In this document: positions 8,930 through 12,889 of the stretch, piece by piece
Position numbering within the stretch: the stretch's first letter is position 1
How the letters are laid out: each line of letters starts with the position of its first letter
DNA from: Salinarchaeum sp. Harcht-Bsk1
Lineage (GTDB): Archaea > Halobacteriota > Halobacteria > Halobacteriales > Salinarchaeaceae
Direction: 5' to 3'
DNA: 64,000 nt
Assembly: GCF_000403645.1 (NCBI RefSeq)
Contig: NC_021313.1
Location: 186,001-250,000 of the forward strand
The notes under the pieces: model-generated
Databases searched by the model: none
What the model was told of the DNA's origin: nothing
Seen by the model: the letters and a program-made list of their open reading frames with translations, nothing else
Made by a program: the position numbers and the translations under genes

Positions 8930-9556
8930 CTACTCCTCGGGCAGGTCGTCGATGAGCACGACCGCCTCGCCGTCGATGATCGTCGTGTCTTCGTCCTCGT
9001 CGTGGATTTCCGTCGTCAGGCGATACTGGTTCTCGCCGAGGTCCTCGACGACCTCGACGTTGGCGCTGACGCGATCGCCGATGCCGACGGGAGCGCTGAA
9101 CTTGAGGTCCTGGGACAGGTAGATCGTGAGACCTGGAAGCCGGGCGAGCGCGGCGCTAATGAGCCCCGAGGCGAGCGTCCCGTGGACGATCCGACCGCCG
9201 AACCGGGTTCGCTGGGCGAAGTCGTCGTCGAGGTGGAGTCGGTTGGTGTCACCGCTTGCACGTCCGAAGGCGTGCACGTCCTCGTCCGTGAGCCGTTTGG
9301 AGAAGGTGACGGTGTCGCCGACGCCGATGTCCTCACGACGATCGACCGACCGCTCGAAGGTCCAGTCGGGTTCTTCGCCCGCAACCGAGGGAACGGTCTC
9401 CTCGGGGAACCCGTCGCCGTTCGACTCGTCCTCCGTCACGAAGGCCGAAAACGCGGCACGATTCGCGGCCGCGGTGTTTCGGACGACGGTGCTCGTGAGG
9501 TCCATCCACGCGTCTGCGACGGCGGTGAAACCGTTTACCCCCCTCGTGTCGGACAT
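8930..9556 (-). CDS. phaJ: MaoC-family (R)-specific enoyl-CoA hydratase, PhaJ-like
   Basis: A 208-residue hot-dog-fold protein expected to hydrate trans-2-enoyl-CoA to (R)-3-hydroxyacyl-CoA, linking beta-oxidation to PHA synthesis. The first 65 residues (MSDTRGVNGFTAVADAWMDL...) are a helical N-terminal extension. The MaoC domain follows, with the hydratase motif FGRASGDTNRLHLDDDFAQR (catalytic Asp and His) and FGGRIVHGTLASGL. The ATG at 9556 is chosen because the longer frame upstream (to 9613) lacks homology. It is divergent from phaR across about 500 bases, as expected for the PHA locus of haloarchaea, where a maoC gene borders the phaRPEC genes. The symbol rests on context; the family call is firm. 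Confidence 0.87.
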   Translation of the reverse strand: MSDTRGVNGFTAVADAWMDLTSTVVRNTAAANRAAFSAFVTEDESNGDGFPEETVPSVAGEEPDWTFERSVDRREDIGVGDTVTFSKRLTDEDVHAFGRASGDTNRLHLDDDFAQRTRFGGRIVHGTLASGLISAALARLPGLTIYLSQDLKFSAPVGIGDRVSANVEVVEDLGENQYRLTTEIHDEDEDTTIIDGEAVVLIDDLPEE

Positions 9557-9874
9557 ACGATTCGTAGGTTCGTGGGGGTACTTGTGTGCATTGGCTCGTG
9601 TCAACCAGCACATTCGTTTCGAGGTTCCTACCGACCACTATCCGGGACATTAGCCGACTCGTACCGGGGAAATCCGAAGGATAGGACGGCGAACGCACGC
9701 TGGCGAAAGCCAGGCGTATACGGGTGTAATCGGACTCATCTCGTTCGTTTCCGAGAGCAAGTGGCACGGTCGCGAGGCCAGTTGGGTGGTACCAGGGGTG
9801 CGGTGGTGCCGTTCGAACCGTCGCAAGACGAATGCAGCCAGGTGCGTGCCAGCGGCAAGCCAGGTCGTCGTCAT

Positions 9875-9906
9875 TGCCGGACCACGTCACTGCCGTACCA
9901 CGTCGC
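9875..9906. repeat. 16-base imperfect tandem repeat
   Basis: Two adjacent 16-base units, 9875-9890 and 9891-9906, match at 14 of 16 positions. Each contains ACCACGTC. It sits in the phaJ-phaR regulatory region, about 85 bases upstream of the TACCA array. Confidence 0.5.
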
Positions 9907-9990
9907 TGACGGGCCACACCTGATCGTCCGGCGTCCGGCGCAGACACTCGCACCGGAAATCGTTAGCAAGCGCAGCTCCGAACCGGCCAG

Positions 9991-10034
9991 TACCACTCAA
10001 TACCATTGAGTACCATCTGAGGGGAAGCTTTAAG
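9991..10034 (+). promoter_or_regulatory. phaR promoter with three in-phase TACCA repeats and a 7-bp palindrome
   Basis: Three consecutive 10-base units, TACCACTCAA (9991), TACCATTGAG (10001) and TACCATCTGA (10011), place TACCA exactly one helical turn apart. Overlapping them is a perfect inverted repeat ACTCAAT-acc-ATTGAGT (9995-10011). The TATA box CTTTAAG follows at 10028-10034, 26-32 bases before the phaR ATG at 10060. The position is suited to autoregulation by the AbrB-like PhaR, known to repress its own operon in Haloferax mediterranei; whether this is its site is inference. Confidence 0.6.
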
Positions 10035-10059: not shown

Positions 10060-10374
10060 ATGACGGACGACAACGCTGGGTTCCCCTGGCCGCCGGCGAT
10101 GTTCGCCGAGCAGTTTCAGGAGGCGAGTGAAGATGCCATGCAACGGCAGCAGGAGCTGTACAAGCAGTGGCTCTCCATGAGTGCCGACGGCACGAGTGGT
10201 GGCCTCTCGGAGCTCAGTGCCCTGAGCACTGGCACGGCGACCTTCAAGTCCCGCGTACAGAGCGGCGGCCGGATCTCGATCCCGGACGCCGAGCGCGAGG
10301 CCCTCGACATCGAGGAGGGGGACATCGTCCAGACGATCGTCGTCCCCGTCAAGCGAGATCGAGACTCAGAGTGA
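10060..10374 (+). CDS. phaR: PHA operon regulator PhaR, AbrB-like
   Basis: A 104-residue regulator of PHA granule genes. The N-terminal half is a helical segment (GFPWPPAMFAEQFQEASEDA...) of a type seen in granule-associated proteins. The C-terminal half (about residues 60-104) is an AbrB/SpoVT swapped-hairpin DNA-binding domain (FKSRVQSGGRISIPDAEREA, then EEGDIVQTIVVPVK). In Haloferax mediterranei the equivalent protein represses the operon and also binds granules. Start: either GTG at 10057 or ATG at 10060; the ATG is preferred because CTTTAAG at 10028 fits a leaderless start there. It is first gene of phaR-phaP-phaE-phaC; phaP begins 5 bases after its stop. Confidence 0.9.
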   Translation: MTDDNAGFPWPPAMFAEQFQEASEDAMQRQQELYKQWLSMSADGTSGGLSELSALSTGTATFKSRVQSGGRISIPDAEREALDIEEGDIVQTIVVPVKRDRDSE

Positions 10375-10379
10375 TTCCA

Positions 10380-10841
10380 ATGACTGACACCAACCCCATG
10401 ACGACCGCGTTCGACTTCCAGCGCAGCATGATCGAGCAGACCCACCAGATGACCCACGAGACGATCGAGGCCCAGAAGACGGCCGTCAACGCGATGGCCG
10501 ACAGCGTGGCGACCCTCGAGCAGGTCGCGGACCAGAACGTGGAGCTCTCCCACGAGGCCGTCCACGCCTACCTCGACGCGATCGAGCAGGTCGTCCCCGA
10601 GGCCGAGTTCGGCGACGTTCGCGAGCTCGTCGACGACGGCTACGAGAGCGCCGCCGAGTTCCAGGACGAGACCTGGACGGCCGTCCACGAGGCCGTCGAG
10701 GAGGGCGTCCAGAACTTCGAGACCGCCGCCGACAACTACGGCGAGATGGTCGACAGTTCCTTCGACACCTACCTGCAGGCCCACGAGCAGGTCGAGGCGT
10801 CCGCCGAGGAGTTCGAAGAGATCGACGTCTCCGCCGACTGA
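10380..10841 (+). CDS. phaP: Phasin PhaP, PHA granule structural protein
   Basis: A 153-residue, nearly all-helical acidic protein expected to coat PHA granules. The sequence MTDTNPMTTAFDFQRSMIEQ followed by long amphipathic helices (QKTAVNAMADSVATLEQVAD, ENFETAADNYGEMVD-type repeats) is as in haloarchaeal PhaP. It starts at the ATG at 10380, five bases after the phaR stop, so translation is likely coupled. The predicted helices (about residues 10-65, 68-110 and 112-145) fit a phasin bundle. It lies between phaR and phaE as in Haloferax and Haloarcula. Confidence 0.9.
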   Translation: MTDTNPMTTAFDFQRSMIEQTHQMTHETIEAQKTAVNAMADSVATLEQVADQNVELSHEAVHAYLDAIEQVVPEAEFGDVRELVDDGYESAAEFQDETWTAVHEAVEEGVQNFETAADNYGEMVDSSFDTYLQAHEQVEASAEEFEEIDVSAD

Positions 10842-10881: not shown

Positions 10882-11430
10882 ATGAGCGAACAAACCACCA
10901 CGCCACCCGCACAGGAGAGCTGGACAGCGTTCGTCGAGAACATGAACGAGCAGATGGTCGACGCCTTCGAGGCCAACGTCGAGGCGCAGTCCCAGTTCGT
11001 CGAGACCTGGGCCGAGACGCTCTCAGAGGGCACCGACGACGAGCGCTTCGGCGAAGGCGTGCAGGGCTACGCCCGCGCCTACAAGGTCTGGATGGAGGCC
11101 GCCGAAGACATGGCCGAGCAGGTCGCCGCCGAGGGCACCGACGTGTCGCCCGACGACCTGCGGGACGTCTGGCTCTCGAGCGCCAACGAGGCGTTCAAGG
11201 AGGTCATGTCCACGAGCGCGTTCGCCGCGATGACCGGCGAGACGGTCGAGGACGCCCTCGAACTCCGGCAGGCCGCCGACGAGAACGCACAGTCCACGCT
11301 GCACGCGCTCGGCATGGCGACCGAACGGGACATTCGCGAAGTCGGCGACCGCCTCGTCGAACTCGAACGCCGCCAGCACGGCATCGAGCAGAAGCTCGAC
11401 CGCGTGCTGGACGCACTCGAGGAGGAGTAA
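10882..11430 (+). CDS. phaE: PHA synthase subunit PhaE (haloarchaeal type)
   Basis: A 182-residue helical partner subunit of class III-type PHA synthase; PhaE is needed for PhaC activity on the granule. The sequence starts [20 protein letters not shown] and continues with amphipathic helices; residues about 150-182 ([20 protein letters not shown] ... [11 protein letters not shown]) form a C-terminal coiled coil of the kind found in PhaE proteins. The ATG at 10882 is preceded by a 40-base gap with TTTTTCAAC, which could be a weak promoter or a T tract. PhaC begins 4 bases after its stop, so the two subunits are translationally linked. Haloarchaeal PhaE is shorter than bacterial PhaE. Confidence 0.9.
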
Positions 11431-11434
11431 CGGG

Positions 11435-12889
11435 GTGACGACGATGCAGAACCCCTACGCAGGCTTCCTCGACATGCAGCGCACGGCCTGGGAGCAGGCC
11501 ACCGAAGCCGCCGAGAAGCTCGGCGCAGCCCCCGACGCGAACGAGTCCATCGCGTCCGTGGACGTCGGCGAAACCCCCAGCGAGGTGGTCTATGAGGAGA
11601 ACAAGCTCCGGCTCCTCCACTACGAGCCGCTAACGGAGGAACAACACGACGTCCCGATCCTCATCGTCTACGCGCTGATCAACCGACCGTACATCCTCGA
11701 CCTCCAGCCCAGCCGCTCGGTCGTTCGCACGCTCCTGGAGAACGGGTTCGACGTCTACCTCATCGACTGGGGAGAGCCCTCGATCCTCGACACGTCGCTG
11801 ACGCTCGAGGACTACGTCACGCGCTACATCGACAACTGCGTCGACGAGGTTCGCGACCGCTCCGGCCAGGATTCGATCAATATCCTGGGCTACTGCATGG
11901 GCGGGACCATGTCCTCCATGTACGCCACGCTCGAACCCGAGAAAGTTCGCAACCTCGGCCTCATGGCCGCCGGGCTCTGCTTCGCGGGCGAGGGCGGCAT
12001 TCTCGAACTCTGGGGCGACGAGGAGTACTTCGATCCAGACGCCGTCACGGAGACGTTCGGCAACGTCCCGGCGGAGTTCCTCGACACCGGCTTCGCGCTG
12101 ATGGACCCCGTCGAGAACTACGTCACGAAGTACGTCCGGTTCTACGAGAACATGGAGGACGAGGACTTCGTCGAGAACTTCGCACGGATGGAGGAGTGGC
12201 TCGGCGACGGCATCGACGTCGCGGGCGCCGCGTTCGACGAGTTCATCGAGGACATCTACCAGGAGAACAAGCTCTACGAGAACGAACTGTACCTCGGCGA
12301 CCGGCACGTCGACGTGAACGAGATCGACATGCCGGTGCTCCAGATCGTCGCGGAGTACGATCACCTGATTCCCCCGGGCGCTTCCAAACCGTTCAACGAC
12401 GTGGTCGGAACCGACGACGTCACGACGATGGAGTTCGCCACGGGCCACATCGGCATGAGCGTCTCTTCGCGATCGCACGCACAGCTCTGGCCCGACGTCT
12501 GCGAGTGGTTCGAGGAGCGATCCCAGCTCGAAGACGACGAGCCTGCAACCGAATCGGCCGCGGAACCTGAGCCTGACACCGAATCGGCCGCGGAAGCCGA
12601 CGACGAAGCCTCGGCGTCCGAAACGAGCATCAGCGAAGCCGAGGGCGCCGACGAGGCAGCGACCGAAGACGCCGAAACTGGTGAATCGGAGGCCGAGACG
12701 GCCGACGCGGCTACCCTGCAGGACGTCGACGGGATCGGTCCGGCCTACGAAGAACGCCTCGAAGAGGCCGGCATCTCGACCGTCGCAGCGCTCGCCGACG
12801 CCGACGCCGCCGCGCTCGCTGCGGACACCGAAGTCGCGCCCAACCGGATCCTCTCCTGGATCGAACAGGCCGAACAGCTCAGCGAGTAG
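11435..12889 (+). CDS. phaC: PHA synthase catalytic subunit PhaC with C-terminal helix-hairpin-helix tail
   Basis: The enzyme polymerises (R)-3-hydroxyacyl-CoA into PHA on the granule surface. Alpha/beta-hydrolase core, residues about 45-365, with lipase-like box GYCMGG (nucleophile Cys154), Asp309 in VAEYDH and His338 in ATGHIG, the Cys-Asp-His triad of class III synthases. Residues about 366-430 are an acidic Glu/Ala/Asp linker, followed by an extra domain to residue 484 with the helix-hairpin-helix pattern [20 protein letters not shown]. That tail resembles HhH modules of DNA-binding or ribosomal proteins and is absent from bacterial PhaC. The start is GTG at 11435 or ATG at 11444; the GTG is given because it lies just after the phaE stop with GAGGAG upstream. 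It is last gene of phaRPEC. Confidence 0.93.

Follow-up and report, generated by a model that had tools for sequence, protein, structure and literature searches.

A Phased TACCA Ladder Abuts the Core Promoter of phaR

The phaR promoter of Salinarchaeum sp. Harcht-Bsk1 carries a ladder of three TACCA units, one every 10 bp, set directly upstream of the BRE/TATA region. The same ladder, strictly phased, at a fixed distance from the TATA box, and built of units that may be inverted about a single base, is conserved throughout the order at phaR promoters and is nearly unique to them. Judging from sequence and by analogy with Haloferax mediterranei, we consider it very probable that the ladder is an autoregulatory operator of the phaRPEC operon, with PhaR itself as the candidate binder. 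An observation made at one promoter would in this way yield a defined, TATA-anchored operator conserved across an archaeal order.

In the window (the whole stretch of DNA analyzed, 64,000 nucleotides), phaJ lies on the minus strand (8930–9556; MaoC-like dehydratase, PF01575, E = 1.4e-19). Its divergent neighbors on the plus strand are, in this order, phaR (10060–10374; a probable AbrB-like regulator of 104 aa), phaP (10380–10841; 153 aa), phaE (10882–11430; PF09712, E = 2.3e-08), and phaC (11444–12889; class III PHA synthase subunit, TIGR01836, 414 bits versus a cutoff of 365). The phaP product gave no Pfam match; the gene was named as a phasin gene by its position in phaJ-phaRPEC and by tblastn in relatives. 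All five genes occur in this arrangement in 66 of the 74 loci longer than 5 kb. PhaC residues 424–477 (12713–12874), which follow an acidic linker, match a C-terminal helix-hairpin-helix (HHH_5, E = 1.1e-09), a domain type associated with DNA binding that is here carried by a granule enzyme, and a GIGP-like motif is present in 5 of the 18 relatives whose PhaC end fell inside the fetched locus.

Three TACCA boxes 10 bp apart had been reported in a first-pass annotation of this DNA, and we confirm them just before the BRE/TATA of phaR, with starts at 9991, 10001, and 10011. They head three consecutive 10-mers that fill positions 9991–10020 without a gap, all on the plus strand: unit 1, TACCACTCAA (9991–10000; pivot C9993, score 12.8); unit 2, TACCATTGAG (10001–10010; pivot C10003, score 13.7); and unit 3, TACCATCTGA (10011–10020; pivot C10013, score 14.7), which abuts the BRE. 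The pivot base is the first C of CCAT, and the scores were obtained with a profile built without Salinarchaeum. On the distal side, a degenerate fourth unit, AACCGGCCAG (9981–9990, plus strand), matches the ladder with two mismatches and scores weakly (−1.8). The BRE/TATA region of the operon, GGGGAAGCTTTAAG (10021–10034, plus strand), was assigned by position and haloarchaeal consensus and is conserved in aligned relatives; the TATA-like CTTTAAG occupies 10028–10034. The boxes sit 40–70 bp before the PhaR start codon, the ATG at 10060.

A search of all 3,255,260 bp of the genome gave one match to the pattern TACCA-N5-TACCA-N5-TACCA and none to its reversed control. When up to three mismatches were allowed, two matches were seen in the window, against a mean of 0.03 in 100 dinucleotide shuffles; the second match is the same ladder shifted one unit upstream. 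The pair TACCA-N5-TACCA alone showed no excess genome-wide (three matches, and three for the reversed control). Significance rests on the triple, not on the pair. The ladder with the core promoter is also the only well-conserved intergenic block between Harcht-Bsk1 and Salinarchaeum laminariae, its closest relative among the fetched loci: 26–27 of 30 columns are conserved there, compared with at most 18 of 30 further upstream.

The phaJ-phaR intergenic region also contains three direct 16-bp repeats at 9869–9916 (CGTCATTGCCGGACCA and variants; 100/88/75% identity), which fall in a poorly conserved stretch of the S. laminariae alignment. Some 200 bp upstream of the ladder, a single inverted box, TTGGGTGGTAC (9782–9792), pairs with unit 1 (11-nt arms, 91%); it may be a lone half-site or a chance occurrence.

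The first-pass annotation had further pointed to an ACTCAAT-acc-ATTGAGT palindrome. This 17-bp element, ACTCAATACCATTGAGT (9995–10011, unstranded), is exact in the window, overlaps the boxes, and is centered on C10003, but it is not conserved. Its arms are not kept in the sister species S. laminariae, where five of seven arm pairs are intact, and pairing around the palindrome center across 106 phaR promoters was no better than in column shuffles. We therefore judge the palindrome incidental and reject it as a recognition element.

The Ladder Is Conserved at Haloarchaeal phaR Promoters with Units in Either Orientation

Of 394 genomes of the order, 235 contained a relative of PhaR; 80 loci were fetched, and 106 distinct promoters were compared. 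Orthologous promoters had been named beforehand as the place to check the pattern, and there the ladder was present in 105 of 105 loci, with strict 10-bp phasing and a fixed TATA distance. When the 106 promoters were anchored on the TATA box, CCAT/ATGG cores fell on a ladder with 10-bp steps. Spacings from CCA[TC] to CCA[TC] of 10, 20, and 30 bp were counted 41, 15, and 5 times, with one case each at 9 and 11 bp; for [AG]TGG to [AG]TGG the corresponding counts were 114, 40, and 12, again with one case each at 9 and 11 bp. From CC to GG, spacings of 7, 17, and 27 bp were counted 47, 81, and 50 times. Taken together, these two series of spacings mean that the units can be read on either strand, turning about one base, a unit being CCAT or its reverse complement ATGG.

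Units in this comparison are counted 1, 2, and 3 outward from the TATA box. In 103 of the 106 promoters, the unit closest to the TATA box has its pivot 15–16 bp upstream of the TATA anchor. Strong units 1, 2, and 3 are present in 95, 98, and 92% of promoters, and a strong fourth unit in 51%. The consensus of the unit is TACCAT-Y-N-R-A (TACCATYNRA), in either orientation, every 10 bp; it could be used for finding PhaR targets or for tuning haloarchaeal bioplastic promoters. The description of the boxes as TACCA repeats running in one direction holds for Harcht-Bsk1 but not for phaR promoters in general, where each unit may be inverted. CCAT is preferred in distal units and ATGG in proximal ones, and the all-CCAT arrangement of Harcht-Bsk1 is a minority form among the promoters. 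On a tree of PhaC from 73 loci, we counted at least 14 orientation changes of the middle unit, 10 of the third, and 3 of the first.

One half of the promoters served to build a profile, which was then applied to the other half (both halves come from the same promoter set, in which promoters of related species cannot count as independent); in all 105 of 105 loci, the highest-scoring ladder was the one at the phaR promoter. Profile scores above 15 were reached by 104 promoters versus 0 of 473,220 background positions. Genomes without phaR were considered as a control; phaC likewise gave no match in 13 of 13 of them, in a search that had no positive control, so that none supplied a natural pha operon lacking phaR for comparison.

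In three loci (L064, L066, and L067), further units resembling those of the ladder follow the TATA box, approximately 0–30 bp upstream of the phaR start codon (GATGGTA and similar; scores 12.6–14.6). These are perhaps a second operator.

PhaR Is Probably AbrB-Like, and the Ladder Has the Core and Spacing of AbrB Sites

Read on the minus strand, the Salinarchaeum ladder is TGGTA-N5-TGGTA-N5-TGGTA. The pseudo-consensus of Bacillus AbrB is TGGNA-N5-TGGNA (PMC11497800), and AbrB sites are described as TGGNA boxes 4–5 bp apart (PMC8552724); the minus-strand ladder has both the box and the gap of such a site. PhaR, for its part, has a conserved C-terminal block, FKxRVQSGGRxSxPxxERExLDIxEGDIVQ, in which residues 62–75 (FKxRVQSGGRxSxP) are almost invariant. 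A profile of the C terminus matches the archaeal AbrB-type barrel sequence 2glw (E = 4.3e-08), and relatives of PhaR carry AbrB/MazE/SpoVT annotation. Direct family matches stay under their cutoffs (TIGR01439, 22.5 bits versus 28.3; PF04014, 15.2 versus 24.7). AlphaFold modeled the monomer with low confidence (mean pLDDT 64.4), and the nearest fold match, a small dimeric barrel (E = 0.2), is not a reliable one. The minus-strand ladder agrees with the AbrB consensus, and PhaR, probably AbrB-like itself, is the candidate binder. The first-pass annotation had suggested the same protein, a choice in keeping with the core and spacing of AbrB sites (PMC11497800, PMC8552724) and with what is published on H. 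mediterranei (PMC9049629, PMC6085418).

Bacillus subtilis AbrB resembles this system in TGGNA boxes separated by 5 bp, which gives a 10-bp periodicity, in its multi-unit sites, which AbrB binds cooperatively (PMC4022651), and probably in the AbrB fold of the protein. In contrast, AbrB sites are loose and AT-rich, whereas the haloarchaeal ladders keep strictly to their pattern and are nearly confined to one operon; AbrB acts as a global regulator and has its tetramerization domain at the C terminus, whereas in PhaR it is the AbrB-like domain that is C-terminal. Sequence recognition by the AbrB fold has been termed elusive (PMC4022651). The match between the ladder and AbrB sites suggests a recognition code common to two domains of life, and the repeated inversion of units about a fixed base would amount to a natural experiment on DNA reading by symmetric dimers of the AbrB fold.

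Relation to the H. mediterranei Element and a Model for Autorepression

As reported from Cai et al. (2015) in two later papers, the phaRP promoter of H. mediterranei contains four tandem repeats, likely the PhaR site (PMC9049629), and a negative cis-element immediately upstream of the BRE (PMC6085418). Loss of PhaR raises the activity of the promoter fourfold in that species, and loss of the PHA synthase genes lowers it twofold (PMC7137286). The Salinarchaeum ladder shares with this element the gene cluster (phaJ-phaRPEC), the place directly before the phaR BRE/TATA, the tandem-repeat build, and the probable assignment to PhaR. It differs in having three full units and one degenerate unit rather than four repeats. 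The likeness is drawn from the reviews' description of the repeats, and the orientation in Salinarchaeum, all CCAT, is different. In Haloferax larsenii, of the same genus as H. mediterranei, we found four units in series (CCCAT, ACCAT, GCCAT, and ATGGT). The Salinarchaeum ladder is the orthologue of the known H. mediterranei operator and is not new in kind; new with respect to that element, as described in PMC9049629 and PMC6085418, are the family-wide conservation, the freedom of orientation, the match to AbrB, and a further ladder at a mutase gene (see below). PhaR of Cupriavidus necator is likewise a negative DNA-binding regulator of PHA genes; in bacteria, however, phaP and phaR have separate promoters, whereas in haloarchaea one common promoter serves both.

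We propose that PhaR dimers bind three or four units, spaced one helical turn apart, through contacts to their CC/GG cores. Such spacing would line the dimers up along a single face of the helix, immediately next to the BRE, where bound PhaR would block TFB/TBP and so repress phaR-phaP and probably the genes behind. As PHA granules form, they would take up PhaR, and the promoter would open. The autorepression, the repeats before the BRE, and the response to PHA are here carried over from the H. mediterranei papers. The model presumes that PhaR binds the Harcht-Bsk1 units, probably cooperatively, and a two-fold symmetric PhaR dimer would account for the tolerance of inverted units. Neighboring units show the YNR spacer pattern, but across the 106 promoters they gave no excess pairing with one another; the dimer axis may therefore sit either on a unit or between units.

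The place of the ladder directly upstream of the BRE would also suit a TFB-recruiting activator, and the H. mediterranei phaRP promoter has been called strong and constitutive (PMC13038957), as might be expected if the ladder were the activator site of a different regulator, like other archaeal upstream activating sequences. We think this very unlikely, since the H. mediterranei element in that place is negative (PMC6085418) and promoter activity goes up when PhaR is lost (PMC7137286).

PspR, a PEP-synthase-like repressor, also binds the phaR promoter region of H. mediterranei, according to ChIP and EMSA on a promoter fragment (PMC10948481), and the ladder might be its site or one common to PspR and PhaR. 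The fragment shifted in the EMSA measured 211 bp, binding to it was called weak, and no motif was given; moreover, PspR is listed in 13 haloarchaea (PMC10948481), whereas the ladder stands at all 105 phaR promoters scanned and has the AbrB core and spacing. We hold a role of the ladder as a PspR site to be very unlikely.

That the three boxes are a functionless chance repeat, as the unremarkable frequency of TACCA pairs might suggest, is practically excluded by the uniqueness of the triple with its 0.03 shuffle expectation, and is refuted by conservation at phaR promoters across the order.

A Second Ladder Precedes a Phosphoglycerate Mutase Gene in Salinarchaeum

Apart from the phaR promoter, to which we assign PhaR as the probable binder, both Harcht-Bsk1 and S. 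laminariae have a three-unit ladder in front of a phosphoglycerate mutase gene (identified by sequence, MQAALIILDGWG...), with the last pivot base at −57. The CCAT cores are kept between the two species and the spacers have changed; an identical 23-bp flank adjoins the ladder. No such ladder was found at this gene in 28 of 28 other haloarchaeal genomes examined. The mutase gene is the likely target and not a certain one, because on the other side of the ladder is a divergent gene, which starts about 155 bp away.

In a search with the mixed-orientation pattern, total counts in both Salinarchaeum genomes were not above the reversed control. In Harcht-Bsk1 the best matches did not go beyond the phaR and mutase ladders and one two-unit match in a coding region. 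We offer as a tentative possibility, short of an even chance in our estimate, that PhaR reads an orientation-indifferent phased ladder with AbrB core and spacing and that the mutase gene is a second target in Salinarchaeum, linking granule status to lower glycolysis.

S. laminariae has a third, strong ladder (L134, 1501–1529; C1:943755; score 30.8), which is absent at the orthologous position in the Harcht-Bsk1 genome. The gene behind it has the look of a bat/HTH-10-type regulator, and a short-chain dehydrogenase gene lies downstream.
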